Virus record (IMG/VR): IMGVR_UViG_3300032087_003621
Span: 62,001-126,000 of that record
DNA length: 64,000 bases
Strand: one strand, 5' to 3'
DNA from: a virus
Numbering within the stretch: position 1 is the first letter of the stretch; every line of letters starts with the position of its first letter. The notes beneath the pieces were generated by a model that saw nothing but the letters and a program-made list of their open reading frames with translations, was not told the DNA's origin and made no database searches. Below, one piece after another: positions 3,001 through 43,159 of this stretch. Made by a program: the position numbers and the translations under genes.

Positions 3001-5164
3001 TATCACAGAAAACATTACAAATTCTGTCACGAACAATTACATTGTTGAAGAGGCCCCAGTAATAACTGAAAACAGTGGTGTTGGTCAAGATACTGGTAAC
3101 GAAAACGATGATGGCATTGGGGCTATTGCTTCTGGTACTACTACGGTACAAGAAGTTGTTGTGGAACCAGCCTCAACGGTTCAGGTTACTTCTGCAAGTC
3201 AATCTGGTAGTGTTGCGGTCATTACATTTAATGTTGATAATAGTGGTGAAGCTGTTGTTGGTACAGCAAACTCTATTGACATTAACTATGAAGGTTCAGG
3301 AGAAAATGAAGTTGCAACCGTCATTCAAACAGATGGACAGTATGCCGAAAATTCAAACACAGTATTAGAACCGGGCGGTGGTACTGCGACAGGTACAGAT
3401 TATGAAGATGTGAAAGCACCAGCGGCTGCGCCTGCAACACAACCAACAGAAGCTGGGAATGTCGCTCCAGCTACTAACGCTACGACATCATATAACGTTG
3501 ATGAACCAGACAATACCAAGGTTCCTTCTATACAAAACACTGGTAAATTTGCGGATAGAGTGCCTGGTCTTGGATACGTTGACCCTATTGCACAAACCTT
3601 TATGGTTGATAATGAATATGGTGTTTTCATTACTAAAGTGGGTGTTTTCTTTGCGACTAAGGACCCAGAAATCCCCGTACAGGTTCAGATTAGACCTACG
3701 GTTAATGGTGCTCCATCATCTAGTAAAATTATTGCTAGTAAGTTTGTGGCCGCATCTCAGGTTCAGGTACCAGCGAGAGCGGACCAAAGAAATTTCTCAG
3801 TGGTTAAAACTAAAGAAACTGTATTTGAGTTTGAAGAACCGGTTTTCTTAAGTCCTTTCACTGAATATGCAATTTGTGTTATTGCTCCTAATACACCTTA
3901 TTATACTGTATATGTTTCAGAAATGGAACAGTTTGTTCTTGGTTCAACCGAGGAAAGAATTTTGACTCAACCTTCTTTAGGTTCATTCTTTAGGTCACAA
4001 AATTCACAGATTTGGGAACCAGACCAACAAGTAGATATGATGTATAAATTATATCGTGCACAATTCCGTTATGGTGGCAAGGCGCTATTCAGAAACGCTG
4101 ATGTGCCTAAAGAACTTTTGGACCCAGACCCCATTAATACAACAGCTGGTTCTACTGAAATTTATATTTCTCATTATGACCACGGTTTACGTGAAGGTGA
4201 TAAGGCAGAAATTTTAGGTCTTGATTCTGCTACACGTTATGGTGGTGGTTCTGGTATTCTTGGTTCTTCGATGATGACCATTAATGGTACTAGAAGAACA
4301 ATTACCAAAGCTGATGCGTTTGGTTATGCATTTGATGCCGACAGTACCGCAGCAACTACAAGTACGTTTGGTGGTACAGGAATCACTTCTGACCGAAACA
4401 TTCAGTTTAACGTTGCGAATCTAACAGTCGAAACGGCAAATCCGGATGTCACATCTGTATCAGCTGGATACAAATTTACAACGGGTAGTTCCATTGCCGG
4501 GGCCCAAGACATTGATTATGTTAAAGACACTAACTGGCAAAGAATCTCACCTAAAATTAACACTACTTTTGGTGCACCTAGAGTGATTGCTAATCGTTAT
4601 AATGAAAATTCTCAGTTGTCAGGATTGCGTTCTTGTGAAATCAAGGTTGACATGAAGAGTAGTCATGAATTTGTATCACCAATGCTCGACTTACAAAGAT
4701 GTTCGTTGACATTAATTGAAAACATTATTGACTTCCAAGATTCTGCTGACACTTCTGGAAATAAAAATATTCCTATCAGATTTACGTCTGAGACAGACCC
4801 ATACAGTGGTTCACACCCAGCGAAACATATCACGAAGCCAGTTACATTGGTTGAAGATGCTGTTGGACTCAAGGTTCTATATGCAGCGAATATTCCTGCG
4901 AATTCTGAAGTTGATTTGTACTATAGAACAGCGGTTGAAGGTGAAAATATCGTTGAGAAAAATTGGGTCTATGATGCTCCAGAAAATACTTTACCCACAG
5001 ATGAAAATCCAGCCATCTTCAGAGAATACACCAACCTGATTGGTGGTGAGGATGGTACATTAGATGCATTTACCGAATTCCAATTGAAGTTGGTATTCCG
5101 TTCTAAAAATTCATCTAAAGTTCCTGTGGTGAGAGATTTAAGAGCAATTGCTTTGGTAGATTAA
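1..5164 (+). CDS. Very large DUF4815-type virion structural protein (5' end outside window)
   Basis: The reading frame is open to the left edge (first full codon at position 2), so the TTG at 95 is internal and the true start lies upstream. At least 1721 residues are visible. The N-terminal part, with a GxxYxxGYRxE-like motif (GVAYINGYRAE), resembles the DUF4815 domain of structural proteins in marine T4-like phages. The middle holds a threonine run (about 9 Thr, nt 2201-2230) and a predicted coiled coil (nt about 2860-3030, leucine/acidic heptads) followed by Asn/Thr-rich repeats. The C-terminal third begins with a DPIAQTF motif seen in related cyanophage proteins. It lies upstream of the fibre genes, so it is probably a baseplate-attached or proximal fibre component. 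The exact role is inferred; the family call is by eye. Confidence 0.75.
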   Translation, partial: AQRTYEESGNYIAEPYKIRFVEIDSAAAEDRLYLEVSKGVAYINGYRAENPALKKLVIPKPTAAELVAGENVPVIYDRYLNGNSTDKTTHRGTLTLNSTVNLYDGTGGTGNIVGKVKVRSIERTTGSIGSVNSVTRIYISSSGDISESIRNARSIGTGPTNYFQLVLEGNPARALIKGNQRNKDLLFSLPRSRPSNVDPLDYDYIFQQTFTADASGTTVVTTTDNDYTDTSSWIITSEDSGSVSFNAALNVNADQVTITGLDLAGTSYTITGYKSITNATPKEKKPVETTSTGTVVSGTPYNLGQYDIKTVSEIKDSANGNSIFSYFTLDNGQRDNHYVKGRLLQTFPYSGPIYVKYEYWKRGSTGNYYSKNSYVDNTTIAPFINITYNDIPSYKPNYDATTRLYNVLDFRPDFDSASGVLENGTENFYLPKRSTQITGDISYYLPRADKLVMSQEGKLMYIRGVPDKNPQYKKTPDKSLELYKILMNANTLTPEDLSITKVESKRYTMKDIGKLEKKLDRLEEVTTLSLLELDTKNLNLLDANGNVRTKSGFFVENFKDQTLSATKSQEYRAALDFQSNTVRPTFSSDNIRLIWDSVNSSGIVKKGDMLYLDYTEVDWKSVEIASRNEPVNPFIIQIFNGQMTLSPSSDEWKDTKYKAPKIIPNGTRIENTDVGFIWNEHETNWQGQNPDDLEVGQVTGVTSSVAGSESNVNTTSTTTEGDGLFIENVTTDITTTTTTTTTKHTVTKIVAEETVEEVVGDRIVQVFSIPWMRSRKVYFKAEGMRPKIRVYPFFNSKNVSKWCRQESFVRFSERTEDDGNLNTQYTQHPDGPTSLVTNEFGEVSGSFLIPRRINPDLYYKTILGLEEYDPQQDVDRFPCGALEFKLLDISQPLDKAATSKAFSLYTAQGTLNQRQKDVLSTRVLYEASSDFYSENTHVSTTSATSLQQNETTADQFTELLSSVEEMQTEIADLEDQVDIIQEELDSLELTQVNNTFITNNITENITNSVTNNYIVEEAPVITENSGVGQDTGNENDDGIGAIASGTTTVQEVVVEPASTVQVTSASQSGSVAVITFNVDNSGEAVVGTANSIDINYEGSGENEVATVIQTDGQYAENSNTVLEPGGGTATGTDYEDVKAPAAAPATQPTEAGNVAPATNATTSYNVDEPDNTKVPSIQNTGKFADRVPGLGYVDPIAQTFMVDNEYGVFITKVGVFFATKDPEIPVQVQIRPTVNGAPSSSKIIASKFVAASQVQVPARADQRNFSVVKTKETVFEFEEPVFLSPFTEYAICVIAPNTPYYTVYVSEMEQFVLGSTEERILTQPSLGSFFRSQNSQIWEPDQQVDMMYKLYRAQFRYGGKALFRNADVPKELLDPDPINTTAGSTEIYISHYDHGLREGDKAEILGLDSATRYGGGSGILGSSMMTINGTRRTITKADAFGYAFDADSTAATTSTFGGTGITSDRNIQFNVANLTVETANPDVTSVSAGYKFTTGSSIAGAQDIDYVKDTNWQRISPKINTTFGAPRVIANRYNENSQLSGLRSCEIKVDMKSSHEFVSPMLDLQRCSLTLIENIIDFQDSADTSGNKNIPIRFTSETDPYSGSHPAKHITKPVTLVEDAVGLKVLYAANIPANSEVDLYYRTAVEGENIVEKNWVYDAPENTLPTDENPAIFREYTNLIGGEDGTLDAFTEFQLKLVFRSKNSSKVPVVRDLRAIALVD

Positions 5165-5165
5165 C

Positions 5166-5390
5166 GTGAAATTAGTAAAAGTAGATGGACACACGGGTCT
5201 CGGTAGAGACTCGAAAACAGGTGCAATCATTAATATAAATAAAAGAGAAGTTGAGACGGCTCGTGAAAGAAAGAGACGCCGTAAAGAGGCTCAAGAGGAA
5301 AAATTACAACTTGAGTCTAAGGTGGTCAATCTAGAGAATGATGTTGCCGATATCAAAGACATGTTAACCAAGATATTAGAGAAACTATAA
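5166..5390 (+). CDS. Small coiled-coil protein, conserved-type, unknown function
   Basis: 74 residues starting at GTG, 1 nt after the stop of the large structural gene, and sharing its last base with the ATG of the fibre gene downstream, so the three are translationally coupled. The N-terminus (KVDGHTGLGRD..TGAIIN) looks like a short beta-hairpin. Residues 25-74 are highly charged, with heptad leucines and valines, and should form a helix or coiled coil. Small proteins of this shape occur beside tail-fibre genes of marine T4-like phages. An adaptor or fibre-oligomerisation role is a guess from context only. Confidence 0.7.
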   Translation: MKLVKVDGHTGLGRDSKTGAIININKREVETARERKRRRKEAQEEKLQLESKVVNLENDVADIKDMLTKILEKL

Positions 5391-8300
5391 TGGCAGACCC
5401 TTACGGATACGAACGTCCTACCCTAGTAGACCTTGGCGATAACGTCAACACTTTTCGTCGTAAAGTTAATCAAATTAGTGATGACCTTGGTGACAAGAGG
5501 CGTTTACTAACAGATGCTGGAACTTCACTTGCGTCTGATAGTGATATTGTCGGTAACCTAATCGAACTCGATTATCGTATTAACGAAACAAGTGGAGACT
5601 TGTATCTTCGTGCAAATGGCGGAAGTCTCTATATTCAAAACGGCAACACATCTACAATCGCGGCCGAGTTTTTATATGACAGTGCTGCAGGTACTTTAAG
5701 TTTAGTAACACCAATGTCTGGTGACTTCACCATCGATACAGTTGGTGATATTATTCTTGATGCTGACGGTAACGATATTCGATTTAAGAATGGTGGTGGT
5801 GGAGATGAAGTTGTCCACACATTAGCGAATGACGCTAATTATACCATTACTGCTCCCGCCGACTATCTTGTAGATGCTGTTGGTGATATCGACCTCGACG
5901 CTGGTGATTTAATTATTCGTTTCAAAGCGAATGGTACGACACACTTAACTCACACATTAGGTCCAACTAACTTTATCAATTCCGCACAGAGTTTAGTACG
6001 GAATATTTCAGGTGCGTTAACGGATTCGGCCTCAACTTCAATTTTAAGACTCTCTGGCACCACCACTACTGACACGGTTGGTACAGATTATGCTTTAGCA
6101 GCAGGTGGAAACTACACTGTAGATGTTGATGGGTCTATTGCAGATTCAGCGGCCTCTATTTCAAGAACCACTACTACTACAATTTCTGATACTTCCGGAA
6201 CAACTTATACGGTAGTTGCGGGAACAAATATTTCACAGACTTCAACTGCTGGGTCTACCACTCACGTGTCTGGTACCACAACGACCCATACTGTCGGTAC
6301 CGATTACGCTCTAACAGCTGGCGGAAACTATACGGTTGATGTCGATGGTGCTATCGCAGATTCAGCGGGTACAACAATCTCCAGAACTGCTGGTACGAAT
6401 ATTACTGATACGGCTTCTACTGGTTCTTATGCATTAAACACTGGAACTACCCTTGAACAAACCGCTGGGTCTTCTATTACACAAACTTCTACCACTACAT
6501 TTGACCAAGTATCAGGTGGAAACTTTACGACAACGGTAACCGGCAATGCTCTTGTAGATGCATCCGGCGACATCACTTTATCAGCGGATGGTAATGACAT
6601 TGTATTCGACAATGGAGCTGGAGGTGACACAGTCACTCATACCTTAACAGATTCTGGTGATTATACCGTTGCTCAAAGTGGAACAGGCGACTACACCGTT
6701 GATGTTGGTGGAGATATTATCTTAGATGCTGCTGGTGACAATATCGTATTTAAAGATGATGGTAGTACAAGAATAACCTATACTCTTGGCGCCACAACTG
6801 ATATTGCCATGGCTGGTAGTTTAACAACTAACGTTGCGGGTTCAATTACGGATTCTGCTGGAACAACCTATGCAGTTGTTGCAGGAACTTCTATTACTCA
6901 AACTGCCGGTACGACATTTAACCAAGTATCAGGCGGTAACTTTACGACAACTGTTACAGGCGATGTTCTTGTAGACGCTTCAGGCACTATTACTTTAGAT
7001 GCTGATGGTAATGATGTCATCTTTAAGAATGGTGCTGGTGGTGATACTGTCACTCACACATTAGCTGACAACGCAGACTATACAATTATAGCACCCGATG
7101 ATGTTGTCATCGATGCGGTTGGTAATATTACCCTTGATGCTGATGCCAATAATATCTTCTTCAGAGATGGTAGTGTGGCTCGAGTACAGTATGCGTTAGG
7201 TACAAGCAATGTAGAGACATGGAATGGTAACCTCACTCGTAATGTGAGTGCTGCACTAGTTGATTCAGCTGGGACTTCTATAACCACTGTATCGGGCACA
7301 ACCACTACACACACGGTTGGCACTAATTACAATTTAACGGCTGGTGGTAATTCTGTTGTCAATATCACTGGGTCTATCGATGAAGACGCTGGTACAACTA
7401 TCGACAGAACTGCTGGTACAAATATTACTGATACTGCGTCTACTGGTTCATATACTTTAACAGCAGATACAAACATTAGTCAAACTGCTACCACGGGAAC
7501 AATTACCCAAACTTCTGGTACAACATTTACGCAAACGTCTGGTGGTGCATTCACACAAACGTTAGGGGGTAATCTTACCACTAACGTTACAGGTAATATT
7601 CTAATTGACGCCTCTGGACAATATAATTTATCGACAGATACTACTATTAAAGATTCTGCTGGGACTGCTCACACAACGGTTGCGGGTACTCAGATTGTTA
7701 GAACTTCAGGGTCAAGTACCACAGACACGGTTGGAACTGACTATACACTCACCGCTGAAAACAATATTAACCAAACATCAACCTCTGGTACCATTACACA
7801 AACTTCTGGTACAACGTTTGACCAAGTGTCAGGTGGGAACTTTACGACTACGGTAACAGGTGATTTCACGGTTGATGCTTCTGGTATAATTGTATTAGAT
7901 ACGGAAAGTGATACTATTACATTTAAAGATGGTAGTGCTGGTCATTCTGTGACTCACGTGTTTAATCCTGCGAATGGTGATTACACGGTTAGTGCACCAA
8001 GAGACTATACACTTGATATTGCCGGTGATATTATCCTTGACGCTGACGGTGGAGATATCTTCTTCAAGGATGCCGGTACAACGAACTATCAGTTTGCAAC
8101 GGACGGTACCATATCACGAACAGGTGATGTGGCACTCGATGTAACTGGTGATATTACTTTAGATGCTGCCGGAGACAACATTGTCTTTGCGGATGCAGGA
8201 AGTACACGCATCACGTATACGTTAGACGCAACCACAGATATGGCCCTTACAGGCAGTTTGACGCATACTATCGGTGGTGATTATACTGAAAATGTAACGG

Positions 8301-11300
8301 GAAGCACTGTAAGAAACGCTAATGCGATTCTAGACTCTTCTGATACGACATATACCGTTGTTGCAAAAACAAGTGTTTCTCAAACATCAGGTACAACATT
8401 TGAACAGGTATCAGGTACAACATTTACTCAAACTTCTGGTGGAAACTTCACCACCAATGTAACGGGTGAATACTTAGTAGATGCATCTGGTGATATCACA
8501 CTAGATGCTGATGGTGGAGATATCTTCTTCAAAGATGGTGGAACAACTGATTATCAGTTTGCTACAAACGGTACCATATCACGAACAGGTGATATAACAC
8601 TTGATGTAACTGGTGATATTACACTGGATGCCGATGGTGGTAATTGGTTCTTCAATGATAACACTGTTACTCAATTTGAATTTATTGCTGGCACCAACAA
8701 AGAAATCGATGTTCCTTCTGGTGACTTAACAATCGATGTGGCTGGTGACATTACCCTCGATGCTGATGGTGGCGACATCTTATTGAAAGATGGTGGTACA
8801 GAATTCGGTCGTTTATCCAATAGCGCCGGTAGTTTACAAATATATTCACCCCAATCAGATAAAGACATAAATTTTGTAGGTAATGATGGGGGTACTACTT
8901 TTACCGCTCTCAGTTTGGATATGTCGGACAGTGGTTCAGCAATCTTCAATCACGACATCTACTTACCCGACAATGGTATTGCAAGATTCGGTAATGCTAG
9001 TGACTTAACGATTTACCACACTGGCTCAGAAAATATCATCGAAGCTCAAAATGGAATACTTGTTATTCGTCAGAACAATGACGATAACGATGTTTTAATA
9101 CAGAGTGACAACAGTATAGGTGGGGTAACGAACTACTTCCGCGCTGATGGTTCTACTACCGCAGCTATCTTGTATTTTGGAGGTAGTGAAAAAATATCCA
9201 CAACCTCCACAGGTATCAACGTAACTGGCACAGCGGTCACAGATGGTTTGACTGTGGATGGAACTGGGACGGCTATTGACCTGCGTTCCAACAATAATGC
9301 TGGTACGGCTCTCAACACCCTTCGCTTTACCGACACTGACCCAACGGCAGTAAATAACGCTGAAATAGGTAAGATTGAATTTTATGCAACAGACACTTCA
9401 TCTGTTGTAGCTTCTATTGTTGGTCATAACGGATCCGCCTCTCCTGATGGATACTTGCAGTTTAATACAGCTGAAGGAACTGCCTTACGCACACGTATGA
9501 GGATAGAAGACAGGGGTGATATCAGCTTCTATGATTCAGTGGGTAGTAGTCAACAATTCTTCTGGGACGCTTCTACGAGTCGATTGGGACTGGGCACAAC
9601 AACACCAGACAACACATTCCACGTTGTTTCTGGCGCTGCTGGTGAGGTAGCACAGTTTACAGGTGCCATCGAAGGTCGTGGTTTATCAATACGTTCAGAG
9701 ACAAACACAGACGCATCAGCGCATGTTGTGTTTAATAGTCAGTCTGGCGGTTCTAAAGGTATGTTTACTTTTGAGACTGATGGTGCAGAGCGGGCCCGTC
9801 TTGACGAAAATGGCAACTTGCTGGTGGGTAAGACTTCCTCTGGAATTATTAATGAAGGTGTAGAGTTTAGACCAGGCGGTCAAATATTTGGCACACAAGA
9901 CGGCGCATATCCACTTCTTCTCAACAGAGTAACTTCAGATGGCGATATAGCTCAGTTTCGCAAAGATAACGTCACAGTCGGTAGCATTGGTGTTGCTATA
10001 TCAGTACCTTACTTTATTAACCCACAAACAAGCGGTAGCGGTCTTCGGATGGGTACTGGAGTTATTCAGCCTTCTGATAACGCAGGTGCTAAATCTGACG
10101 CTAACCATGATCTTGGTTCTAGCAGCGGCCGCTTCAAAGACCTTTACCTGTCAGGTAGAATCTCTGCTGGTGGTGTGTCGGCGACTGGTTCGAATGGTAT
10201 CTGGATTGATTCGGCGACAGGCAATGTGGGTATCGGCACAGCGAGTCCTTTAAGCGTTATTCATTTAGTGGACGACACAAGCACAGTATACGACGCTACT
10301 GCATACCAAAGCGACTTAACGATAGAAAGAAAAAATACATCTGGTAACAATCAAAGCGCACATATACGTTTTAACGTGACTGGACATGAAGGGTCCACAA
10401 CAGGCGAAGCATCTATCGGAGCAGTTCAAACGGCGAACGCAAGCTCTGCTGACATTGTTTTCACCACTCGTAACGCAGGAACGCGAGGCGAGCGTATGCG
10501 TATCACCAGCGCTGGCAACGTCGGGATAAAAAATTCCAACCCTAGTTCTTACAGTGGCGATGGAGCCGATTTAGTTATTGGTACAACAAGTGGCGATAAC
10601 GGCTTAAGCATTATTAGCGGAACTTCAGGGACTGGAAATATTTACTTCGGTGATGTTGAGGAAACGGGAACAGGGTCAAGAAGAGGTCAGATAGTTTATG
10701 ACCATGCGTCTGACCACATGCGTTTTGCAACGGCAGCAAGTGAAGCCATGCGTATTGACCAGAACCGCAACTTGCTGGTATCCAACACTACTACAAGTAC
10801 GCCTGGTATTAATAACGCTACAACTGGTCACAGTTTAAGCTCTAGTGGTTTTGCCGCACACTCACGAGATGGTGGTGTTGCTGCATTGTTTGTAAACGTC
10901 AATGGCGCTCCTTCAAGTAAAGGTGTGTTAACGAGTTTCAGAAAACAGGGGGTCTACATTGGCGAGATAGGTTATGATGACAGTGATTTAACAATCTATT
11001 CTACCACTGCTAATCACATTGGATTACGATTTGGTAGTGGAGCAGTACTTCCGGTTAACAATGCTGGTACAGTCACCGCATCGATTGCAGATTTGGGGGG
11101 TTCGACTTATAAGTTCAAAGACCTCTGGATATCTGGTACTGCTAACTTACCCACAGTAGACATCGACGGTGGTAGTATTGATGGTACGACAATCGGTAGT
11201 ACAACAACGGCAGCAGCGTTCTTTACTGATGTTGATATTACAGGAACGTTAACAGCATCGTTGATTTCACCTACCACAGTTTCATTCAATGATTATGTTT

Positions 11301-11890
11301 CGGGTACTAACTCAAACATTCTAACATTCGGTAATGACTCTGACTTGGCCATCTACCACGATGGGTCACATTCTTATATTAAAGACAAGGGTACTGGTGA
11401 TTTAAGACTCACCACCAATGCGTTCGGTGTAAGAAATTCTACTGACACTCAGAATATGATTACTGCTGCGGAAGGCGGCGCGGTTACACTTTATCATAAC
11501 GATACAGTTAGACTCGCAACCACATCTGCTGGTGTAACAGTCTCAGGTCTCTTAACTGCTGATACCAAGTCGTTTACGATTGACCATCCTACTAAAGAAG
11601 GAATGAAGTTACGGTATGGTTCACTTGAAGGACCAGAGCATGGGGTATATGTTCGTGGTAGGTTGAACGGTGAGAATACTATTGAGTTACCAGAAGTGTG
11701 GTTGGGTCTTGTTGATGAGAATACTATCACAGTTAACTTGACACCGATTGGTAAGGGTCAATGTTGGGTTGAGGATATTCAGAACAACACGGTCACGGTT
11801 GGCGGCCATCTGAACTGCTTCTATATGGTTCTCGCAGAACGTAAGGATGTCGAGAAACTAGAAGTGGAGTTTCCGGCCGATGGGAGTTAG
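5390..11890 (+). CDS. Giant repetitive tail fibre protein
   Basis: 2166 residues. The N-terminal ~55 residues probably attach to the virion. Residues ~60-1150 are a long array of imperfect beta-repeats of two kinds: D-[IV]-x-L-D-A-D-G-x-D-x-x-F-K-[DN]-G units, and Thr/Ser-rich TxTDTxGTxY units. Their Asp-rich turns could bind metal. Residues ~1150-1950 change to trimeric-fibre style repeats (GNVGIGTxSP, RMRITSAGN). The C-terminal ~110 residues (LRYGSLEGPEHGVYVRGR...) match the end domain of many cyanophage fibres. Host recognition is the likely role. The stop overlaps the start of the first lectin-like gene by 11 nt. Base composition of about 9240-11100 is visibly GC-richer than the flanks, suggesting an exchanged cassette. 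Confidence 0.85.
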   Translation: MADPYGYERPTLVDLGDNVNTFRRKVNQISDDLGDKRRLLTDAGTSLASDSDIVGNLIELDYRINETSGDLYLRANGGSLYIQNGNTSTIAAEFLYDSAAGTLSLVTPMSGDFTIDTVGDIILDADGNDIRFKNGGGGDEVVHTLANDANYTITAPADYLVDAVGDIDLDAGDLIIRFKANGTTHLTHTLGPTNFINSAQSLVRNISGALTDSASTSILRLSGTTTTDTVGTDYALAAGGNYTVDVDGSIADSAASISRTTTTTISDTSGTTYTVVAGTNISQTSTAGSTTHVSGTTTTHTVGTDYALTAGGNYTVDVDGAIADSAGTTISRTAGTNITDTASTGSYALNTGTTLEQTAGSSITQTSTTTFDQVSGGNFTTTVTGNALVDASGDITLSADGNDIVFDNGAGGDTVTHTLTDSGDYTVAQSGTGDYTVDVGGDIILDAAGDNIVFKDDGSTRITYTLGATTDIAMAGSLTTNVAGSITDSAGTTYAVVAGTSITQTAGTTFNQVSGGNFTTTVTGDVLVDASGTITLDADGNDVIFKNGAGGDTVTHTLADNADYTIIAPDDVVIDAVGNITLDADANNIFFRDGSVARVQYALGTSNVETWNGNLTRNVSAALVDSAGTSITTVSGTTTTHTVGTNYNLTAGGNSVVNITGSIDEDAGTTIDRTAGTNITDTASTGSYTLTADTNISQTATTGTITQTSGTTFTQTSGGAFTQTLGGNLTTNVTGNILIDASGQYNLSTDTTIKDSAGTAHTTVAGTQIVRTSGSSTTDTVGTDYTLTAENNINQTSTSGTITQTSGTTFDQVSGGNFTTTVTGDFTVDASGIIVLDTESDTITFKDGSAGHSVTHVFNPANGDYTVSAPRDYTLDIAGDIILDADGGDIFFKDAGTTNYQFATDGTISRTGDVALDVTGDITLDAAGDNIVFADAGSTRITYTLDATTDMALTGSLTHTIGGDYTENVTGSTVRNANAILDSSDTTYTVVAKTSVSQTSGTTFEQVSGTTFTQTSGGNFTTNVTGEYLVDASGDITLDADGGDIFFKDGGTTDYQFATNGTISRTGDITLDVTGDITLDADGGNWFFNDNTVTQFEFIAGTNKEIDVPSGDLTIDVAGDITLDADGGDILLKDGGTEFGRLSNSAGSLQIYSPQSDKDINFVGNDGGTTFTALSLDMSDSGSAIFNHDIYLPDNGIARFGNASDLTIYHTGSENIIEAQNGILVIRQNNDDNDVLIQSDNSIGGVTNYFRADGSTTAAILYFGGSEKISTTSTGINVTGTAVTDGLTVDGTGTAIDLRSNNNAGTALNTLRFTDTDPTAVNNAEIGKIEFYATDTSSVVASIVGHNGSASPDGYLQFNTAEGTALRTRMRIEDRGDISFYDSVGSSQQFFWDASTSRLGLGTTTPDNTFHVVSGAAGEVAQFTGAIEGRGLSIRSETNTDASAHVVFNSQSGGSKGMFTFETDGAERARLDENGNLLVGKTSSGIINEGVEFRPGGQIFGTQDGAYPLLLNRVTSDGDIAQFRKDNVTVGSIGVAISVPYFINPQTSGSGLRMGTGVIQPSDNAGAKSDANHDLGSSSGRFKDLYLSGRISAGGVSATGSNGIWIDSATGNVGIGTASPLSVIHLVDDTSTVYDATAYQSDLTIERKNTSGNNQSAHIRFNVTGHEGSTTGEASIGAVQTANASSADIVFTTRNAGTRGERMRITSAGNVGIKNSNPSSYSGDGADLVIGTTSGDNGLSIISGTSGTGNIYFGDVEETGTGSRRGQIVYDHASDHMRFATAASEAMRIDQNRNLLVSNTTTSTPGINNATTGHSLSSSGFAAHSRDGGVAALFVNVNGAPSSKGVLTSFRKQGVYIGEIGYDDSDLTIYSTTANHIGLRFGSGAVLPVNNAGTVTASIADLGGSTYKFKDLWISGTANLPTVDIDGGSIDGTTIGSTTTAAAFFTDVDITGTLTASLISPTTVSFNDYVSGTNSNILTFGNDSDLAIYHDGSHSYIKDKGTGDLRLTTNAFGVRNSTDTQNMITAAEGGAVTLYHNDTVRLATTSAGVTVSGLLTADTKSFTIDHPTKEGMKLRYGSLEGPEHGVYVRGRLNGENTIELPEVWLGLVDENTITVNLTPIGKGQCWVEDIQNNTVTVGGHLNCFYMVLAERKDVEKLEVEFPADGS
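8039..8637 (+). repeat. Pair of ~134-bp direct repeats inside the giant fibre gene
   Basis: Copies at 8039-8172 and 8504-8637 are 465 bp (155 codons) apart. Both encode LDADGGDIFFKD..T..YQFA..GTISRTGD..LDVTGDITLDA. They include identical stretches such as GGTACCATATCACGAACAGG, and many of the differences are third-position changes. The spacing keeps the reading frame, so recombination between copies would shorten or lengthen the fibre without a frameshift. Confidence 0.8.
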
Positions 11891-12587
11891 TTACGGGCCT
11901 AGTATTGTCAGTGACAGTTTAAAGTTTGTCATAGACGCTGGCAATACTAGGTGTTTTACGCCAGGCAATACTTCTTGTGTTAACATTATCACAGGCGGTG
12001 CGGTGACTGGTGCTAGTGGTCAACCGAACGCTGGGACCCATACTCCCAATACCGCAAACTTTCCTGCATATAACGCCATCAACGGTGGAGTGTTTGATTT
12101 TGCGGGTGGACGTGGAATGAACATTGATGAAGACTTAAATATTAGTGGTGCAATGTCAATCGATGTCTGGTATTATAAAAACTCTTCAGCTACACAATAT
12201 TTCTTTGATGGACGCAATCAAAATGGTAATTGGTTTCTTTCCAATTACACAAGTGGTAATATTAATTTTCATAATAATTTTATATACAATTTTGACACCA
12301 CTTATGATGCCAACAATGCCGATTTTCTTAATAGATGGCAACATCTCTGTATAACAAGTGATGCTACTGGTCCTAAATTGTATATCGATGGTACAGAAAG
12401 AACCAATGTATCAGGTAACAATAATGTAGATGAAGACATTCGAACCAACTTTCGTATTGGAACTCGTTACACAACATCAACTGAATGGACAGGTTATATG
12501 GGCCCAATTAAAATCTACTCTAGAGTTTTGACCGAAAGAGAAGTTCGTAAAAACTTTTTAGCACATCGTGCAAGGTTTGGTGTATAA
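11880..12587 (+). CDS. LamG/ConA-like lectin-fold protein, copy 1
   Basis: 235 residues starting inside the 3' end of the fibre gene (overlap 11 nt). The N-terminus is MGVSYGPSIVSDSLKF-IDAGN. The body has the LamG/concanavalin-A-like pattern: an early G-x-FDF-x-G strand, a MSIDVW strand, WQHLCIT, a LYIDGTE strand, and the terminal GYMGPIKIYSRVLTEREVRKNF motif typical of phage LamG domains. Such domains bind carbohydrate or protein ligands, so this is a probable adhesin or fibre-tip component. It is a tandem paralogue of the next gene, sharing its first ~8 codons and its last ~16 codons almost exactly at DNA level. No signal peptide or catalytic residues are visible. Confidence 0.75.
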   Translation: MGVSYGPSIVSDSLKFVIDAGNTRCFTPGNTSCVNIITGGAVTGASGQPNAGTHTPNTANFPAYNAINGGVFDFAGGRGMNIDEDLNISGAMSIDVWYYKNSSATQYFFDGRNQNGNWFLSNYTSGNINFHNNFIYNFDTTYDANNADFLNRWQHLCITSDATGPKLYIDGTERTNVSGNNNVDEDIRTNFRIGTRYTTSTEWTGYMGPIKIYSRVLTEREVRKNFLAHRARFGV

Positions 12588-13309
12588 TGGGAGTTAGTTA
12601 CGGGCCTAGGATTACAACCGATGGTTTGATAATGCGAATCGACCCAGCCAGTCTCAGGTCCTATCCTGGGACTGGTTCTAGTATTACTGATGTCGCAAGT
12701 GGGCGAGTCGGAACAATCTCTGGCGTTACTATCAGTGACGGCACGTTTGATTTCGATGGCGTTAATGACCTGATTGATATGAACAATTCTTATATTAATC
12801 AAACCTCGAATACCTTAACCAGTGGAAGTTCTACAGGACAAAGCGACTACACTTTAGAAGCTTGGATATACGTTCGCACATCTCAAGGTACTACCACAAG
12901 TGCAGATAGTATTATAGGTTCTACGACTTCTGTTGGCGTAGGTATGCAGGTTGGGGTTTCTGGTGGAAACCCTCGAATGAATTTTGGCGCTAGAAGTACC
13001 AATAATTTCTATGGAAGTACATTTTCTTATAATCAGTGGTATCATGTGGTTTGGTGTAAACAACACAATACCTTCACAAACGTTTATATGAATGGTGAAT
13101 TAGATACTGGTCTTGTAAGTTTTGATGGTAATGATGATTATTACATCTTAGGGGGTACCTATGGAGACATAACCATAGGAAACTCAAGTGGCCGTGTTAC
13201 AGGATTTTTTGATGGCAAGATGGGTCCACTCTCAATTTATAATAAAGGATTGTCAGAATCAGAGGTTCGTAAAAACTTTTTAGCACATCGAGCAAGGTTT
13301 GGTTTGTGA
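12587..13309 (+). CDS. LamG/ConA-like lectin-fold protein, copy 2
   Basis: 240 residues. Its ATG shares a base with the TAA of copy 1 (TAATG coupling). The N-terminus MGVSYGPRITTDGL and C-terminus GKMGPLSIYNKGLSESEVRKNFLAHRARFGL closely parallel copy 1. In between are the LamG strands FDFDGVNDLI, YTLEAWIYV, QWYHVVW and VYMNGELD. The middle of the protein is strongly diverged while the ends are conserved, the pattern expected if the ends serve assembly and the middle binds ligand. Likely a host-recognition adhesin; the ligand is unknown. Confidence 0.75.
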   Translation: MGVSYGPRITTDGLIMRIDPASLRSYPGTGSSITDVASGRVGTISGVTISDGTFDFDGVNDLIDMNNSYINQTSNTLTSGSSTGQSDYTLEAWIYVRTSQGTTTSADSIIGSTTSVGVGMQVGVSGGNPRMNFGARSTNNFYGSTFSYNQWYHVVWCKQHNTFTNVYMNGELDTGLVSFDGNDDYYILGGTYGDITIGNSSGRVTGFFDGKMGPLSIYNKGLSESEVRKNFLAHRARFGL

Positions 13310-13316
13310 ATAAATA
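13309..13316 (+). promoter_or_regulatory. Possible weak late promoter (AATAAATA)
   Basis: This octamer has one mismatch to the TATAAATA late core and lies 27 nt before the ATG at 13344, a spacing like that of the exact boxes elsewhere in the window. It overlaps the stop codon of the preceding gene. Confidence 0.35.
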
Positions 13317-13343
13317 TAGTATAAACTTTAGGTATTGTCAATA

Positions 13344-14585
13344 ATGGCTACGACAAAAATAACTCAGGTTGGTAAAAGAATCGTTAATGATAGTTCATTA
13401 ATTTTTTACTACGATATGACCAATACGATTCGTTCGTTTAAAGGAAAACCAACGACGAATTTGTTTGCTGGATATGTAAATCAATACGACACTTGGACCA
13501 CATCATCAATAGAATTTACATATTACGACCCGCTTCCAGAAGTTAAAATGACAGAAACTTCGGCTAACGTGGGACATTATGTTTTAAAAGACACCACGTT
13601 AACAGACGATACTGAATACACACAATCGATTTATGTCAAGCCCGTTGAGAGAGAACATTTTCAAATATCACCTTCAACTGGATTTCCTGTAAGTTTATAT
13701 GCTAACTTCACTTTGACCGGAGAAGGTAGTATCTCGGGTACGGGTGCTTCAAAGGCAACAATTAAGTTAATAAAAAGTGGACGATATTCTGGATGGTATC
13801 GTTGCACCTATACAGAAACTAGTACGTCTCCTGGCGCAGGAAGAATGGCATATGCAGTTATCAATTCCGCTTCTGCGACTCGTTTAGTAGCGTATGCTGG
13901 AACGCCTGGTTCTGGTGTATTAATTCTTGACCCTCAATTGGAAGCTAGTAGTTTCGCCACTCCGTTTATTGATGGGACGAGAAGTAATACCCAAGCGATT
14001 ATTGATTTGACAGGTAATGAAACCGTAACAGCTAATTCTCTTACGTATAATAGTGATGGCACATTTAGATTTGGTAATGGTCAATATATAACGCTACCTA
14101 ATGCTGCAACAACGTTTGGTACAGGTTCAGTCAGCACATCGGTAGAGTTTTGGATTAGACCAATAGACGATACTGATACAACAAGAATACCCGTTGGGCA
14201 TCAAAATGTATCCGGCGAAAGATTTTATATTGGGATTACTGGTAGTAATTGGGATGTAGGTTGGGGTGGCTTTGGTTGGAATGATGGATTTACTGGAACT
14301 CGACCCACTGCTGATTATGACATTTATCAACACATATGTGTCACAATAAATGCGGGCGTAGTAAGTCTGTATAAAAATGGAGTGAAATCGACGTTCTCTA
14401 AAACAGAAACAACTGTAACGCAGTCTGGCGTTTTTCCGATTGGAACTTATTTTAGTGGGGGAAGTCCATCTGGGGCTTATTATGGTATAGACGATATTCC
14501 TATTTTTAGAATTTACAGCAGAGCTCTCTCAGAAGCAGAAGTAAAACAAAACTTTATCGCACACAGAAAACAGTTCGGTCTTTAA
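13344..14585 (+). CDS. LamG-domain protein with extra N-terminal carbohydrate-binding-like module, copy 3
   Basis: 413 residues from the ATG at 13344; a TTG 9 nt upstream is less likely. Residues ~1-200 contain a beta-sandwich-like module (YTQSIYVKPVEREHF, SGWYRCTYTET, VLILDPQLEASSFATPFIDG) resembling carbohydrate-binding modules found before phage LamG domains. Residues ~225-413 are a LamG domain (FGNGQYITLPN, SVEFWIRP, YQHICVTIN, LYKNGV). The C-terminus IFRIYSRALSEAEVKQNFIAHRKQFGL is clearly homologous to copies 1 and 2. A host-surface adhesin is the best guess. Confidence 0.75.
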   Translation: MATTKITQVGKRIVNDSSLIFYYDMTNTIRSFKGKPTTNLFAGYVNQYDTWTTSSIEFTYYDPLPEVKMTETSANVGHYVLKDTTLTDDTEYTQSIYVKPVEREHFQISPSTGFPVSLYANFTLTGEGSISGTGASKATIKLIKSGRYSGWYRCTYTETSTSPGAGRMAYAVINSASATRLVAYAGTPGSGVLILDPQLEASSFATPFIDGTRSNTQAIIDLTGNETVTANSLTYNSDGTFRFGNGQYITLPNAATTFGTGSVSTSVEFWIRPIDDTDTTRIPVGHQNVSGERFYIGITGSNWDVGWGGFGWNDGFTGTRPTADYDIYQHICVTINAGVVSLYKNGVKSTFSKTETTVTQSGVFPIGTYFSGGSPSGAYYGIDDIPIFRIYSRALSEAEVKQNFIAHRKQFGL

Positions 14586-14638: not shown

Positions 14639-17600
14639 ATGGCACTTGACGATAAAAATATTTTAATTACACCCAATACTGGTACTGCCAACGAACCAAA
14701 GATAGAATTTACTGGGGCAGACGCTAGTGGTAATGATACCATTACTCTCAGTGCCAGTTACGATGGTACAGTTTCTACTCTTTCGTTTGAAGCTTCTACG
14801 GGTCAGTTATTCAGTGTTGCGAACATCGATAGTGATGGTGATGGTTATTCTTTCTCAATCAACGACAATTCAGGTATTCCTGCCGTTCTGGTAGAACTTG
14901 ATGGTACAATTCAATTAAATCCCAACACAGGCAATGTGTTAATCGGCACTTCTACTGATGATGGTTCTAATCTATTACAAGTCAATGGTGATACAAAATT
15001 AACAGGTAATGTTTCTGGTATCACAGACCTCTACATTGATGACCAGATTATCTCTACGGGTGATACAAACACGTATCTTCAGTTTCATGCAGCCGACCAA
15101 TTCAGAATTGTAGCTGGTGGGTCGGAAAGAATAGAAATAACTAATGTAAGTCCACATGTTCTTATTACTGGTAATTTAAAGGTTTCGGGTGACATTGAGG
15201 CAACAGGTACACTAGACGCAATTAGTCAGAACGACCTCTCTGTCACTGATAGAAAAATTACCTTAAACGATGGTGAAACTTTAGCAGGTATTAATGGTGG
15301 TGCTGGAGGTGAACTTGCAGTATCAGGTATTTTCATTGATAGAGGAACGTTAGATTCAGCTTCTTTCGTTTTTAACGAAACAGTTGATGCTTGGCAAGTT
15401 AGATTAAATAGTGCGTTTGATACGCCAGCACTGGGCAATTTGCAAGCAGACTCTATTGGCGCTACTACTATCAACGCTTCGACACTAATAGGGAATTTAA
15501 ATTGGAGTTATATTCAAGACAAACCAGACCCCGTTGTTACTGTTACTTTAACGGGTGATGTTACTGGTTCTGGAAACACCACACTCACGGATTTGACTAG
15601 TGGGACAATCAGTTTTGCAACTACTATTGCCGCTAACTCGGTTGCGTTAGGTACGGACACGACAGGTGCGTATGTTGCTGATATTGTTCAGGGAGACGCA
15701 ATCAGTATTTCCGAAACAGCAAATAATGCGGAAGGAAATACAGTAACCATTAACCACGCTGATACATCATCAGTGGGCAACTTATCTTCTGATAATGCGA
15801 ACGGTACTGTACTTCAAGATATTTCATTCACCTTCGATACTTACGGTCACACAACTGCCGCTTCTGTAGTAACAACTAACCTAGACAACAGGTATATAAG
15901 GTCTTTCCAAGTAGAAGATGGTGATGGTACTGAAGTTACGATTAATCAGGCGAATGAGTGGAAGTTTGTAGAGGGTGCTGGAGATGGTGCTTCTATTGAT
16001 ATTAACTGGACTGATGTCTCCAATGGTACTGATGCTGACCCATATGATTTGACTTTTAGTGTAACCAACACAGATAAAGGTTCTGCACAAAATATTTTCA
16101 AAACCTTTACTGTTGACGATACTGACACTGAATATACTTGGGCCGATACAGGTTCCGCTGTCGCTGATACCAATGCAGATACGCTGACATTTGTTAGTGG
16201 AAATGATTTTGACGTTGATGTTGATGCCACAAATGATGCTATTCGTTTTCAACATGTTGATATAACAAGAACTGATACGACATCTACTGCGACTCCAGCA
16301 TATGGTGGTACATTCACTGTCATCGATTCTTTAACGACTAATGCCAGAGGCCACGTAACTGCTGCTAATGTTAAAACAGTAACAATTCCTGCAAGTGATA
16401 ATACAAATACAACGTATGATTTATCAATCATTCAGACAGGTGGAAATGATGATAATCCAGCAATTAGATTAGCCGCTGGGGGTTCTGGTTCAGGAAACGA
16501 TGATTTAACACTTACGGGTGGGGGTGCGATTACAATTACTCGTACCAGTGCGACCGGACTTACCATTGAACACACCGACACATCATCTCAAGGAAGTGTC
16601 GATAATTCTGGAAACACATTCATTCAAGATATCACGCTTGACACATATGGACACATCACTGGTATAACAAGTGCAACGACCTCAATCGGTAATGCAACAA
16701 TTACTATCGCAGGGGGTACTGATTTACAAAATACCGCTGGTGATTTTACAACTAATCAAACTGGTAATGAAACTATTACCATTAATCACAGTAATATAAC
16801 AAGAACTGATACGACATCTACTGCGACCCCAGCATATGGTGGTACATTTACCGTTATAGATTCGTTAACGACTAACGCACGTGGACACGTTACAGCTGCT
16901 AATGTTAAAACGGTAACGGTCCCTGCAAGTGATAATACAAACACAACGTACTCCATCAGTACAGTAGCCGGTGATGATGCCGTCTCAGAAAAAATTCGAT
17001 TAACTGCTGGTGGTTCTGGTTCGGGAACTGACGATATTATATTGGCTGTGGCACAAACTGGTACTACTGACGGTCTTGACATTTCTGAAACTGGTGATAC
17101 AATTACCTTTGCACACCATGATACATCTACTCTTAGTGGTGCACAAGGTTCTGCTGGTATTGCAAGTATCACCGTAGACGAAATGGGTCACGTTACAGCA
17201 GTAACCACCGCAACATACAATAACTATTCTCACCCAACATACACTACGCGAAGTATCAATACATCTGGTGTAGATGTTCTTGATGTATTTACGTCTGATA
17301 CAATTGGTTCTGTAACTAACATCACTACGAGGACATTGCCAAATGCTACAGCTTCTGTCGTAGGTGTAGTGAGCACAGGAGCTCAAGACTTTGGTGGTGT
17401 GAAAACGTTTAAAGGTGGTCAGATTGTAGTTGAAGGGACTTCACAACCTGAACTTACATTTAACTATGTTCCAGCAGATAATGCGATTGGTCTAAACGAA
17501 TCGTTAGGTAGGATTGAATTTAAAGGTACAGATGAAAGTGTTCAGGACACAGCAGTTAGGATTCAGGCAACTGCTTATGCTGAATGGGGTACTAGTACAG

Positions 17601-19444
17601 ATACAACGGATGCGCCAGGTGAATTATCAATATGGGTTACACGTGATGGAACAGATACCTTATACGAAACTTTAACTATTAATCAGGCGGAAGTAGTTGT
17701 TAATGAACAGTCTCAGGATGTCGATTTTAGAGTTGAGTCTAATGTTGATCAGAACGCGTTTTTCGTCCGTGGTTCTGATGGTAATATAGGCCTAGGCACT
17801 AGTGCACCAAATGCTGATTTGCAAATTAGTAAAGCCACTCCTGATCTTCGTTTCGCTAATACTACTACAAATACCGATTGGGATAGAGGTGATATATTTG
17901 GTTCAATAGAATTTTTTACTGAAGGTGACGTAACATCACAAATAGACGCTATACAAATATTAAATAATCAGAATATTCCTTACGGGGGTCTCTCTTTTAG
18001 AACTGGACACGATACTACAAATCCTCCTACAAGAATGGTAATTGACCACAATGGTGCTATTACCATGTTTAACGAGCTCTCCTCGCAGGGTTATAGTTCT
18101 TTGGCTGACACGACTACGACGGATGAGAAAATTAATTTAACACTTTACCAAAGCTCGAGGAGGGGAGCTGGGACTGAATCTGATATAAGAAGTCCAGCAA
18201 TATTAGCTGGAATCGGGCAAGCCTCAGCACTCCCGGCATATAGTGATGAAGATTCAGATATATTTACTATCATAGCTGCTAATGGGACCACGAACCCTCA
18301 CTATGCTGCAAACGCAGCGATATCACTCTATCTAGATAAAACTGCGGACCCAGCTAACCCAGGCAGCGGCGGTATAAGATTTTTTACTACTTATGCTGAA
18401 ACCTTTCCGCCAACCACTCTAGTTGAGTCGATGCGAATCAACGCGCTTGGCAAAGTCGGCATCGGCACAAATATTATAGCTGATTCTGATAAACTGTATG
18501 TGAAAGGAGGGCATTTAGTAGTAGATGCCGATGGAACCTTTAACACTGCCGCGTTGAGATTTGTTAATGATAATGAAAGATCTAGAATAACATCTGACTA
18601 TGGCACTGGCGGTGGCGGTAGGATGGGGTTTTGGACTGATACGACAGGTGGTACATTAGTTCAAAGAATGACCATCGATAACACAGGCAACGTCGGCATC
18701 CGCCTGACGAGTCCGTCAGATACCTTGGAAGTAAAAGCCAGCGGAAATGATGATGGTATAAGATTAAAAGGTAGTTCCGACGATGACTTATTCTGGATAC
18801 ATCAACAAAATACTGATGGTGTTACAGCAAGAATGTACCATGCCGGTGACTTAAATATTGTATTGAATTCCGAGGGAAATCAACGAGCTCGTTTCAACGG
18901 CACAACTGGTTCATACTTGACTTGGGAATACGGTGGTGCCACCTCAATGGCTGATATAGGTACTGGAAATCATGTTTTTGGCAGTGGTGGAAAAGTCAAT
19001 GACTTTGGAATAACATGTAGAATAGGTAAATTATTATTTGGTAGTAACGGTACTGATATTGATATGATGTTAGATAGTTCTTCCGATCTCCACGTAAAAA
19101 ATGATATTATTGCCTTCTCTACCTCATTATCAGACCAACGCCTCAAAGATGATGTAAAAACACTTGATAAATCGTTAGAGAAGATTCTACAATTGAGAGG
19201 TGTATCGTTCACTTGGAATGCAGGGTCTCGTGAAGGAGTTCGTGACATCGGTGTTATAGCTCAAGAAGTAGAAACAGTTATACCAGAAATTGTTCGGGAG
19301 AAAAAAGCAGAACTAATTGATGGGTTACCGACAAAAACTGTTGACTACGAAAAACTTGTTGCTGTTCTTATCGAAGGTATGAAAGAACAACAATCCCAGA
19401 TTGATGAACTCCGTGAAGAAATTCAAGCACTCAAGGGAGAGTAA
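14639..19444 (+). CDS. Tail fibre with C-terminal Peptidase S74 intramolecular chaperone
   Basis: 1601 residues. The N-terminus is MALDDKNILITPNTGTANEPKIEF. A long region of beta-repeats follows (GNVLIGTSTDDGSNLLQVNGD, DTTSTATPAYGGTF, ARGHVTAANVKTV units), then GNVGIRLTSPSDTLEVKASG trimer-type repeats. The last ~104 residues are a Peptidase S74 domain beginning SDQRLKDD. The predicted catalytic dyad is Ser1498 and Lys1503, and later VIAQEVETVIPEIV and a leucine heptad helix complete the domain. In this family the domain trimerises, drives fibre folding and then cuts itself off just before the serine. The mature fibre would therefore be about 1497 residues. Host attachment is the probable role. 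Confidence 0.88.
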   Translation: MALDDKNILITPNTGTANEPKIEFTGADASGNDTITLSASYDGTVSTLSFEASTGQLFSVANIDSDGDGYSFSINDNSGIPAVLVELDGTIQLNPNTGNVLIGTSTDDGSNLLQVNGDTKLTGNVSGITDLYIDDQIISTGDTNTYLQFHAADQFRIVAGGSERIEITNVSPHVLITGNLKVSGDIEATGTLDAISQNDLSVTDRKITLNDGETLAGINGGAGGELAVSGIFIDRGTLDSASFVFNETVDAWQVRLNSAFDTPALGNLQADSIGATTINASTLIGNLNWSYIQDKPDPVVTVTLTGDVTGSGNTTLTDLTSGTISFATTIAANSVALGTDTTGAYVADIVQGDAISISETANNAEGNTVTINHADTSSVGNLSSDNANGTVLQDISFTFDTYGHTTAASVVTTNLDNRYIRSFQVEDGDGTEVTINQANEWKFVEGAGDGASIDINWTDVSNGTDADPYDLTFSVTNTDKGSAQNIFKTFTVDDTDTEYTWADTGSAVADTNADTLTFVSGNDFDVDVDATNDAIRFQHVDITRTDTTSTATPAYGGTFTVIDSLTTNARGHVTAANVKTVTIPASDNTNTTYDLSIIQTGGNDDNPAIRLAAGGSGSGNDDLTLTGGGAITITRTSATGLTIEHTDTSSQGSVDNSGNTFIQDITLDTYGHITGITSATTSIGNATITIAGGTDLQNTAGDFTTNQTGNETITINHSNITRTDTTSTATPAYGGTFTVIDSLTTNARGHVTAANVKTVTVPASDNTNTTYSISTVAGDDAVSEKIRLTAGGSGSGTDDIILAVAQTGTTDGLDISETGDTITFAHHDTSTLSGAQGSAGIASITVDEMGHVTAVTTATYNNYSHPTYTTRSINTSGVDVLDVFTSDTIGSVTNITTRTLPNATASVVGVVSTGAQDFGGVKTFKGGQIVVEGTSQPELTFNYVPADNAIGLNESLGRIEFKGTDESVQDTAVRIQATAYAEWGTSTDTTDAPGELSIWVTRDGTDTLYETLTINQAEVVVNEQSQDVDFRVESNVDQNAFFVRGSDGNIGLGTSAPNADLQISKATPDLRFANTTTNTDWDRGDIFGSIEFFTEGDVTSQIDAIQILNNQNIPYGGLSFRTGHDTTNPPTRMVIDHNGAITMFNELSSQGYSSLADTTTTDEKINLTLYQSSRRGAGTESDIRSPAILAGIGQASALPAYSDEDSDIFTIIAANGTTNPHYAANAAISLYLDKTADPANPGSGGIRFFTTYAETFPPTTLVESMRINALGKVGIGTNIIADSDKLYVKGGHLVVDADGTFNTAALRFVNDNERSRITSDYGTGGGGRMGFWTDTTGGTLVQRMTIDNTGNVGIRLTSPSDTLEVKASGNDDGIRLKGSSDDDLFWIHQQNTDGVTARMYHAGDLNIVLNSEGNQRARFNGTTGSYLTWEYGGATSMADIGTGNHVFGSGGKVNDFGITCRIGKLLFGSNGTDIDMMLDSSSDLHVKNDIIAFSTSLSDQRLKDDVKTLDKSLEKILQLRGVSFTWNAGSREGVRDIGVIAQEVETVIPEIVREKKAELIDGLPTKTVDYEKLVAVLIEGMKEQQSQIDELREEIQALKGE
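16261..16950 (+). repeat. Two 156-bp direct repeats inside the S74 fibre gene
   Basis: Copies at 16261-16416 and 16795-16950 are exactly 534 bp (178 codons) apart. Both encode ITRTDTTSTATPAYGGTF and the following RGHVTAANVKTV and PASDNTNTTY segments. Nearly all differences are synonymous, showing an old in-frame duplication kept under protein-level selection. Confidence 0.85.
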
Positions 19445-19448
19445 GTAG

Positions 19449-20213
19449 ATGGGTTTAGTTAAATCAACTAATGTTAGATTTTCCGATCTATACAACTATG
19501 GTTTCAATTTTACTTCAATTTACAACGCGGAGCCTAATTTAGCAGCGTTTGTTGGAGATATCAGACCCGATAAAACCGTTAGTTCGTTAGCGGTATTGAG
19601 ATATGGTGCTATGAGAAAATCAGGTGATACTTCAGTTAATAGTTTCACTATCGGAGATGAATGGAAAGCATCTAATACGATTGACACTGCATTAGCGGAC
19701 GGGGCTATTTCTCAAGGAACATATGAAACGAACCATTATGGATATTCGGCCGACGCTGCTGCTGGCACATACGGTTACGGTACGCGATGGAACCCGAATG
19801 GAATCGCTGCTGATCAGTTGTCTGAAAATACGGTAGCTGTTACTCATAATGGTGCTTCTGTCACCGTTGATAAAATAGGATATGACTCTGGCGACCAATT
19901 ATTTGAACTTTGGTTAAAAAGTACAAGTGCATCTTTCTCTGGACATACAGACATAATAGGTTCATTTAGTGTAACTACTAGTGAAGTTGGAACGACGGGC
20001 GCACCATCAGGTTTACCAGCATTATTTTATAGATGTGTTACGTTTCCTCAGTCGCTAGCAAGTGTAGCCCTCATCGGTGCAACGACATTTTATCTAAGGT
20101 ATACATGGACTGAGTCAGACGTTGGAACAACCCAGTGGAATGAAATGCTCTCTATATGGGATGGAAGCGGAGGTAATCTTTTAGTTTCCTTTAACGACTG
20201 TTCTTCAACGTAA
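19449..20213 (+). CDS. Unknown protein of the tail-fibre cluster
   Basis: 254 residues, beginning 4 nt after the S74 fibre stop, with GGAGAGTAAGT as ribosome site. The N-terminus MGLVKSTNVRFSDLYNYGFNF resembles short virion-attachment segments of phage fibre-associated proteins. The rest is Gly/Ser/Thr/aromatic-rich beta-type sequence (YGYGTRWNPNG, QLFELWLKSTS, TFYLRYTWTESD) without signal peptide or recognised catalytic motif. It is likely a virion protein that cooperates with the neighbouring fibre. I do not recognise the family. Confidence 0.6.
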   Translation: MGLVKSTNVRFSDLYNYGFNFTSIYNAEPNLAAFVGDIRPDKTVSSLAVLRYGAMRKSGDTSVNSFTIGDEWKASNTIDTALADGAISQGTYETNHYGYSADAAAGTYGYGTRWNPNGIAADQLSENTVAVTHNGASVTVDKIGYDSGDQLFELWLKSTSASFSGHTDIIGSFSVTTSEVGTTGAPSGLPALFYRCVTFPQSLASVALIGATTFYLRYTWTESDVGTTQWNEMLSIWDGSGGNLLVSFNDCSST

Positions 20214-20225
20214 GATTCTTTAATA

Positions 20226-20233
20226 TATAAATA
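20226..20233 (+). promoter_or_regulatory. T4-type late promoter, TATAAATA
   Basis: Exact TATAAATA in the 50-nt gap, 30 nt before the ATG at 20264. It probably starts the transcript for the 125-residue-frame protein and for neck gene 13 onward. Confidence 0.75.
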
Positions 20234-20263
20234 GGACATATACACCAAAAATTGGGTTGGGAT

Positions 20264-20629
20264 ATGTCCTATTATAAAGACCTTACGATTGACCAAGGTT
20301 CTTCAGTTTCAATCGATGTCTATCTTACGAACAAAGATGGTACGGCTAAGAATCTAACTAATTACACGCCGACTGCACACATCAGTCCGAACTATAATCT
20401 CGATAGTGATAATATCACTGTGTTTACTTGCACAGTAGATTCTGCTGCGTCGGGAATTATTAATCTTGCGTTATCCTACACTCAAACGGACAATCTCAAA
20501 GCAAATAAGAGGTACGTATATGACCTTGAGATTGCTAGAGATAGTTCTGGTTCAATTGCAGAAATCGAACGAGTTATGGAAGGTCAGATTTTCGTAACCC
20601 CATCAGTTACTAAATTACCGAATCTATAA
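20264..20629 (+). CDS. Small beta-sandwich virion protein, BppU/Ig-like
   Basis: 121 residues from the ATG at 20264; an in-frame TTG at 20252 is the alternative. MSYYKDLTIDQGSSVSIDVYLTNKDGTAKNLTNYT, then alternating strands and a C-terminal RVMEGQIFVTPSVTKL, give the pattern of N-terminal domains of baseplate/tail-fibre adaptor proteins (BppU-N-like; 'DqG..f...v.l.d..G...dLtg' motif). Similar small proteins lie upstream of gp13 in marine T4-like phages. A virion or fibre-adaptor function is inferred from fold-like pattern and position. Confidence 0.6.
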   Translation: MSYYKDLTIDQGSSVSIDVYLTNKDGTAKNLTNYTPTAHISPNYNLDSDNITVFTCTVDSAASGIINLALSYTQTDNLKANKRYVYDLEIARDSSGSIAEIERVMEGQIFVTPSVTKLPNL

Positions 20630-42086: not shown

Positions 42087-42111
42087 GGGGCACTTCGGTG
42101 CCCCTTTTTTT
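42087..42111. terminator. Bidirectional terminator between convergent operons
   Basis: Perfect 7-bp stem GGGGCAC / GTGCCCC with a TTCG loop, followed on the plus strand by seven T and on the minus strand by AAATTTTT. It ends the capsid operon from the left and the minus-strand pair from the right. The TAA of the minus-strand ParB-like gene lies in its T-run. Confidence 0.92.
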
Positions 42112-43099: not shown

Positions 43100-43126
43100 A
43101 TAATACTCCTTGTATTATTTTTAGTA

Positions 43127-43145: not shown

Positions 43146-43159
43146 ATATTAGTATATAG

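Follow-up and report, generated by a model that had tools for sequence, protein, structure and literature searches.

Tandem LamG genes in a T4-like phage appear to vary by recombination at conserved gene ends and a linker

The modularity of phage receptor-binding proteins is known already. In the tailspikes of lytic E. coli phages, conserved DNA (44/95 nt before and 20 nt after) flanks a swapped receptor-binding domain, and this flanking DNA has been proposed to be a recombination hotspot (PMC10408124); recombination hotspots at receptor-binding proteins have also been observed in vibrio phages (PMC12028318). The gp38 adhesins of the T4 superfamily possess conserved motifs that separate hypervariable segments, according to the summary of Trojet et al. 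(2011) given in PMC12529663. A hypervariable host recognition cluster (HRC) of pelagimyophages, located between VrlC and gp14, is described in PMC7029224, and metaviromic islands rich in lectin-like genes are described in PMC3909814. What sets the locus of this study apart is that small LamG genes lie in tandem and that their coding ends would be the homology patches, with both copy number and centre changing; a search of open-licence papers on LamG or lectin tail proteins and domain shuffling found no description of such an array.

The locus resembles the tailspike system in that conserved DNA flanks a swapped domain, but the tailspike is one gene with an anchor and a C-terminal domain (PMC10408124), whereas here the LamG genes are tandem and stand-alone, the homology patches lie inside the coding ends, and copy number changes besides the centre. 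The likeness to gp38 is that of a T4-like host-recognition protein with conserved motifs and variable segments; gp38, as far as it is summarized in PMC12529663, has glycine-rich motifs and hypervariable loops, in contrast to the LamG/ConA jelly roll and the apparent exchange of whole domains here, and there was no gp38-like family among the Pfam or PHROG matches. With the HRC and the metaviromic islands the locus shares a hypervariable place in aquatic T4-like phages that contains tail fibres and lectin/concanavalin-A proteins (PMC7029224; PMC3909814). The excerpted text of these two papers describes the variable island but mentions neither a cassette flanked by repeats nor LamG genes that are chimeric.

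The window analyzed is a stretch of 64,000 nucleotides, positions 62001–126000 of a virus record of 146,377 bases (IMGVR_UViG_3300032087_003621). The phage carries T4-like markers, namely gp23 (PF07068), the gp20 portal (PF07230), a T4 neck protein and a T4-type terminase. The nearest named relative of its major capsid protein is found in phage C48C1 (67%), followed at 61% by those of Methylophilales phage Melnitz and Pelagibacter phages HTVC008M and Mosig, affinities which suggest that the phage is probably aquatic. At the DNA level, a search of named phages found nothing beyond a 3% match to Synechococcus phage S-H9-2, and the protein relatives in named phages are distant only. Directly after gp23, two genes lie on the minus strand (42110–44290) of a structural module that is otherwise plus-strand; one of them (43160–44287) matches DruA/DUF4338 (Pfam E = 3e-11, PADLOC E = 8e-7), and also phrog_19197, a function-unassigned family, over its full length (E = 1e-161).

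Three plus-strand LamG genes, here called c1 (11880–12587, 235 aa; PF13385 E = 1.7e-18), c2 (12587–13309, 240 aa; E = 2.9e-17) and c3 (13335–14585, 416 aa; E = 1.9e-15), lie head to tail, and the first-pass annotation had delimited them correctly. The start of c3 is a TTG at 13335, with an ATG at 13344 being equally plausible. On the left they are bordered by a long fibre-like gene of 2166 aa (5390–11890, plus strand), whose stop codon falls within the first 11 nt of c1, and on the right by a fibre of 1601 aa (14639–19444, plus strand) with a Peptidase_S74 chaperone domain (PF13884, E = 6.7e-17). The locus is just ahead of the neck genes (PF11649 at 21525–22406), and its three genes are the only matches to PF13385 in the whole 146-kb record. 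The left border itself is a conserved domain at the C-terminus of the long fibre-like protein (11540–11887; DHPTKEGMKLRYGSLEGPEHGVYVRGRL ... ERKDVEKLxVEF). This domain also occurs in L013–L092, is found in no fewer than 295 stretches of IMG/VR, and makes a handy left marker of the LamG slot.

All three proteins exceed the curated cut-off of Laminin_G_3 (PF13385; 27.6 bits), scoring 67.6, 63.6 and 57.8 bits for c1, c2 and c3 respectively, with divergent sequences; PF13385 denotes a fold family and is not a functional assignment. The model of c1 is strand-rich (pLDDT 77, pTM 0.81), and in it the conserved C-terminal motif forms a helix (residues 219–233) after the last strand. Among isolated domains, this model is matched best in Foldseek by domain 4 of the arabinanase AbnA, which is lectin-like (5hon; E = 1.6e-8, TM 0.58/0.66), with sialidase entries matched at E of about 1e-9, so that the jelly-roll fold predicted for c1 is similar to solved lectin-like domains. 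The model of c3 is weak (pLDDT 66), and the conclusions do not rest on it. By profile, the N-terminal module of c3 is CBM4-like, matching the xylanase carbohydrate-binding module 1k42 (E = 1.8e-5) and 1gui (E = 8e-5), which agrees with the carbohydrate-binding-like module noted in the first-pass annotation; phage baseplate proteins of known structure are matched as well, as is the GTA head spike fibre 6tb9 (E = 1.7e-9). Homologues are annotated as "virion structural protein" in S-PM2 and as "structural protein" in immuto phage. Based on this annotation, the fold and the gene position, the LamG proteins putatively sit on fibres or the baseplate, and the centres of c1–c3 may bind host-surface glycans and thereby alter host range. 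The PHROG family phrog_8510 ("virion structural protein", 1348 aa) is matched in its LamG part by c1, c2 and c3, which suggests that in other phages LamG domains have been joined into a single long polypeptide.

The ends of c1 and c2 are alike at the DNA level, and their centres are not. The 5' end repeat of 27 nt begins c1 (11880–11906, plus strand) and recurs at the start of c2 (12587–12613, plus strand) with one mismatch (26/27, 96%), the first 23 nt being identical as had been claimed from the sequence. A 3' end repeat spans the final 45 coding nt in c1 (12540–12584, plus strand; the conserved helix in the model) and is found again in c2 (13262–13306, plus strand) at 91%, with 26 nt exact, similarity falling to 79% over 84 nt. 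These figures bear out the earlier description of near-identical gene ends, as well as that of very different middles, there being no DNA alignment between the centres and a whole-protein identity of 28%. Both repeats are direct, not inverted, and are located in the coding ends. The 27-nt repeat is short and is also 96% conserved between orthologues, and is therefore no proof of recent exchange by itself.

The nearest relatives in IMG/VR are L004/L011, L005/L014, L006/L015 and L007/L013, the last three pairs containing the orthologues of c2, which is the resident stand-alone LamG gene. Whilst L004/L011 are near identical to the window and carry all three genes, c1 is missing in the three close relatives L013, L014 and L015, where c2 abuts the stop of the upstream gene. 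The 23-mer occurs twice in L004/L011 and once in the L013, L014 and L015 contigs, in which the 27-nt repeat is single copy. Aligned to L014 by blastn, the window's match ends at 11906 and resumes at 12587, and the corresponding segments of L014 (192–774 and 748–2171) overlap by 27 nt; the same break and the same overlap are seen with L013 and L015. As this overlap is exactly the 27-nt repeat, a 707-nt unit is present or absent between direct repeats. This close comparison comprises three relatives, all incomplete contigs and some of them short, with L013 ending within c2. The more distant L016 has one short LamG gene ahead of its c3 relative, and with this single outgroup the simpler reading would be that c1 was gained in the lineage of the window. 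Across 31 non-redundant T4-like loci in which both borders were found, the slot holds no LamG gene in six, one in four, two in 10 and three in 11. Copy number is consequently not uniform; a uniform one is what the first-pass annotation had named as speaking against its reading. L016 also has three more genes (17557–20326), at least two of them LamG-type, 3' of a large gene that replaces the S74 fibre, and therefore arrays can form on either side of that large gene.

The closest relatives of c1 are not its neighbour but whole genes of other phages, L094 3615–4316 (57%) and L042 4017–4745 (51%), compared to 28% with c2, and the latter of these lies in the same slot, between the fibre genes of another phage. 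Both genes have the centre of c1 (in L094 with the motifs TPNTANFPAYN, GGVFDFAGGRG and RIGTRYTTSTEWTGYMGP), yet the ends of the L094 gene differ from those of c1 (63% over the first 27 nt and 67% over the last 45 nt). Over the last 45 nt, c1 and c2 are 91% identical, versus 80 and 82% between c2 and its own orthologues. In a three-sequence permutation test, which is approximate in that sites are treated as exchangeable, the centre segment gave p = 5e-5 (the floor) and the end segment p = 5e-4. By these sequence comparisons c1 is a chimera, with ends like those of c2 and a centre of foreign type, in line with the centre exchange that had been proposed.

Tandem triplication was an oversimplified reading of the locus. 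Being a separate gene of two modules, found in each relative whose contig spans its place (L014, L015 and L016), c3 rules out a simple triplication, and rather than keeping only the C-terminal motif it contains a full LamG domain. Its CBM4-like N-terminal module (13344–13949, plus strand) is ~90% identical in L014 and is followed by the conserved linker SFATPFxDGTRSxT (13950–13997, plus strand), which holds the breakpoint of the domain swap. The centre of the LamG domain (14016–14531, plus strand) is exchanged, with no blastn match in L014 or L015 (gap from 14015 to 14532/14547), and the conserved 3' end (14535–14585, plus strand) is 88% identical to L014 over 51 nt. From their start, the c3 genes of the window and L014 are 90% identical for 681 nt and then do not match at all up to the last 51 nt. 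Between L014 and L015, by contrast, the N-module is about 65–73% identical, followed by a 175-nt identical run from the linker SFATPFxDGTRS on, in two phages that are 23% different (77% identical) at the adjoining neck genes. Since its N-module matches the window and its LamG domain matches L015, the c3 of L014 combines both ancestries (permutation test p = 5e-5, approximate, with sites treated as exchangeable). As judged from these alignments, the c3 LamG domain is swapped between the window, L014 and L015, with a sharp breakpoint in the linker, so that the second observation that would have spoken against the first-pass reading, a lack of centre exchange, was not made either. At the 3' end, the site of a possible return crossover, informative sites split 4:3. 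The search for the LamG domain of the window's c3 elsewhere returned a near-identical contig as the sole match. The proposal that recombination at conserved ends swaps the centres is upheld overall, with the exception that the upstream crossover in c3 is located in the linker and not at the 5' end.

A survey of 111 LamG genes in 45 non-redundant contigs showed long exact end matches to be commoner among pairs from the same array than with shuffled labels (5' p = 0.005; 3' p = 0.018), with the centre little different from shuffled labels. This excess is driven by few pairs, of which the window is the strongest case. A T4-like contig, L029, has eight LamG genes, and two neighbours among them (1549–3431) share both DNA ends (46 nt at 93% and 76 nt at 84%), with an extra module in one; by its sequence it is an independent second case of the shared-ends pattern.

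One explanation for these patterns is that a single gene was duplicated and the copies simply diverged, so that c1 and c2 have constrained ends and fast-evolving centres. Both ends are conserved in protein family-wide (a YGPxI start and an LSxxEVxQNFxAxRxRFGL end), and some similarity of the ends is therefore to be expected without exchange. The codons, however, are identical at the ends only: c1 and c2 use the same codon at 20/22 shared residues of the ends (9.5 expected from local codon usage, P = 1.4e-6) and at 24/56 shared residues of the centre (24.7 expected), so that the identity of the ends exceeds what chance or constraint on the protein would give, and pure protein constraint is ruled out there. 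With the 3' ends of the paralogues also being closer than those of the orthologues, the c1 centre being 57% identical to the gene of another phage, and the identical LamG stretch of L014 and L015 adjoining a diverged N-module, duplication and divergence is distinctly unlikely to be the explanation. It is a more serious possibility, if still a doubtful one, that c1 was acquired as a whole cassette, ends included, from another phage with the same end sequences, in which case neither a duplication nor a replacement of the centre took place in this genome. A single event would then suffice, and the c1 relatives in L094 and L042 are whole genes, that of L042 in the same slot; but the ends of the known relatives differ, and therefore the chimera was formed somewhere, and the donor would then need the same recombination at the ends.

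Conserved ends with variable centres resemble the traces left by dedicated diversification systems, such as a diversity-generating retroelement, an invertase/shufflon or another site-specific recombinase. Yet neither a reverse transcriptase (PF00078) nor a tyrosine (PF00589) or serine (PF00239) recombinase had a match in the 146-kb record, which is possibly incomplete, in searches where the positive controls matched. The genes therefore do not qualify as targets of a diversity-generating retroelement and, with the repeats being direct, nor as products of invertase/shufflon variation. The centres, moreover, differ as whole unrelated stretches and not by scattered point changes, making a dedicated system highly improbable here. 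A RecA/UvsX-like recombinase, on the other hand, is encoded at 61222–62247 (plus strand; PF00154, E = 7.7e-10), and as this candidate exchange enzyme is present and the searches for a reverse transcriptase, integrase or resolvase were negative, homologous recombination is the likeliest route, with the RecA/UvsX-type system of the phage itself as the putative enzyme. Discordant ancestry and sharp breakpoints, as in receptor-binding protein modules exchanged by homologous recombination, are found in c3 at the linker and in c1 between its ends and its centre.

Homologous recombination at the conserved ends and the linker, changing both cassettes and domains, is therefore considered the probable means by which the LamG slot varies. 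The alignments demonstrate that c1 is present or absent between repeats, that it is chimeric, that the LamG domain of c3 is swapped and that copy number varies, and the first three of these results would all be explained by such recombination. The slot between the two fibre genes, ahead of the neck genes, would be the host-recognition slot of a T4-like phage, holding a small tandem set of lectin-like virion proteins. Homology patches at the start (~9 codons), in the C-terminal helix (~14 codons) and in the linker conserved between modules would allow recombination between phages during co-infection, or between copies, with the outcome that either a whole cassette is added or removed, or the variable LamG domain is replaced without loss of reading frame at the ends. 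It is apparently through recombination between matching DNA that the phage alters its grip. It may further be speculated that the coding ends are kept at the DNA level by second-order selection as recombination handles, that T4-like lineages share a pool of cassettes, and that the array is a combinatorial host-range code with turnover within populations, although this extended scenario is rather unlikely on present evidence.

Assigning aquatic T4-like phages to their hosts is difficult because of hypervariable host-recognition islands, and for part of such islands the LamG slot would offer a concrete mechanism at base resolution. Breakpoints are predicted to be confined to the patches of about 27 nt and 45 nt and the linker, and the size of the array is expected to differ between members of one population. 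Should the LamG centres prove to bind glycans, host range may be readable from cassette content.
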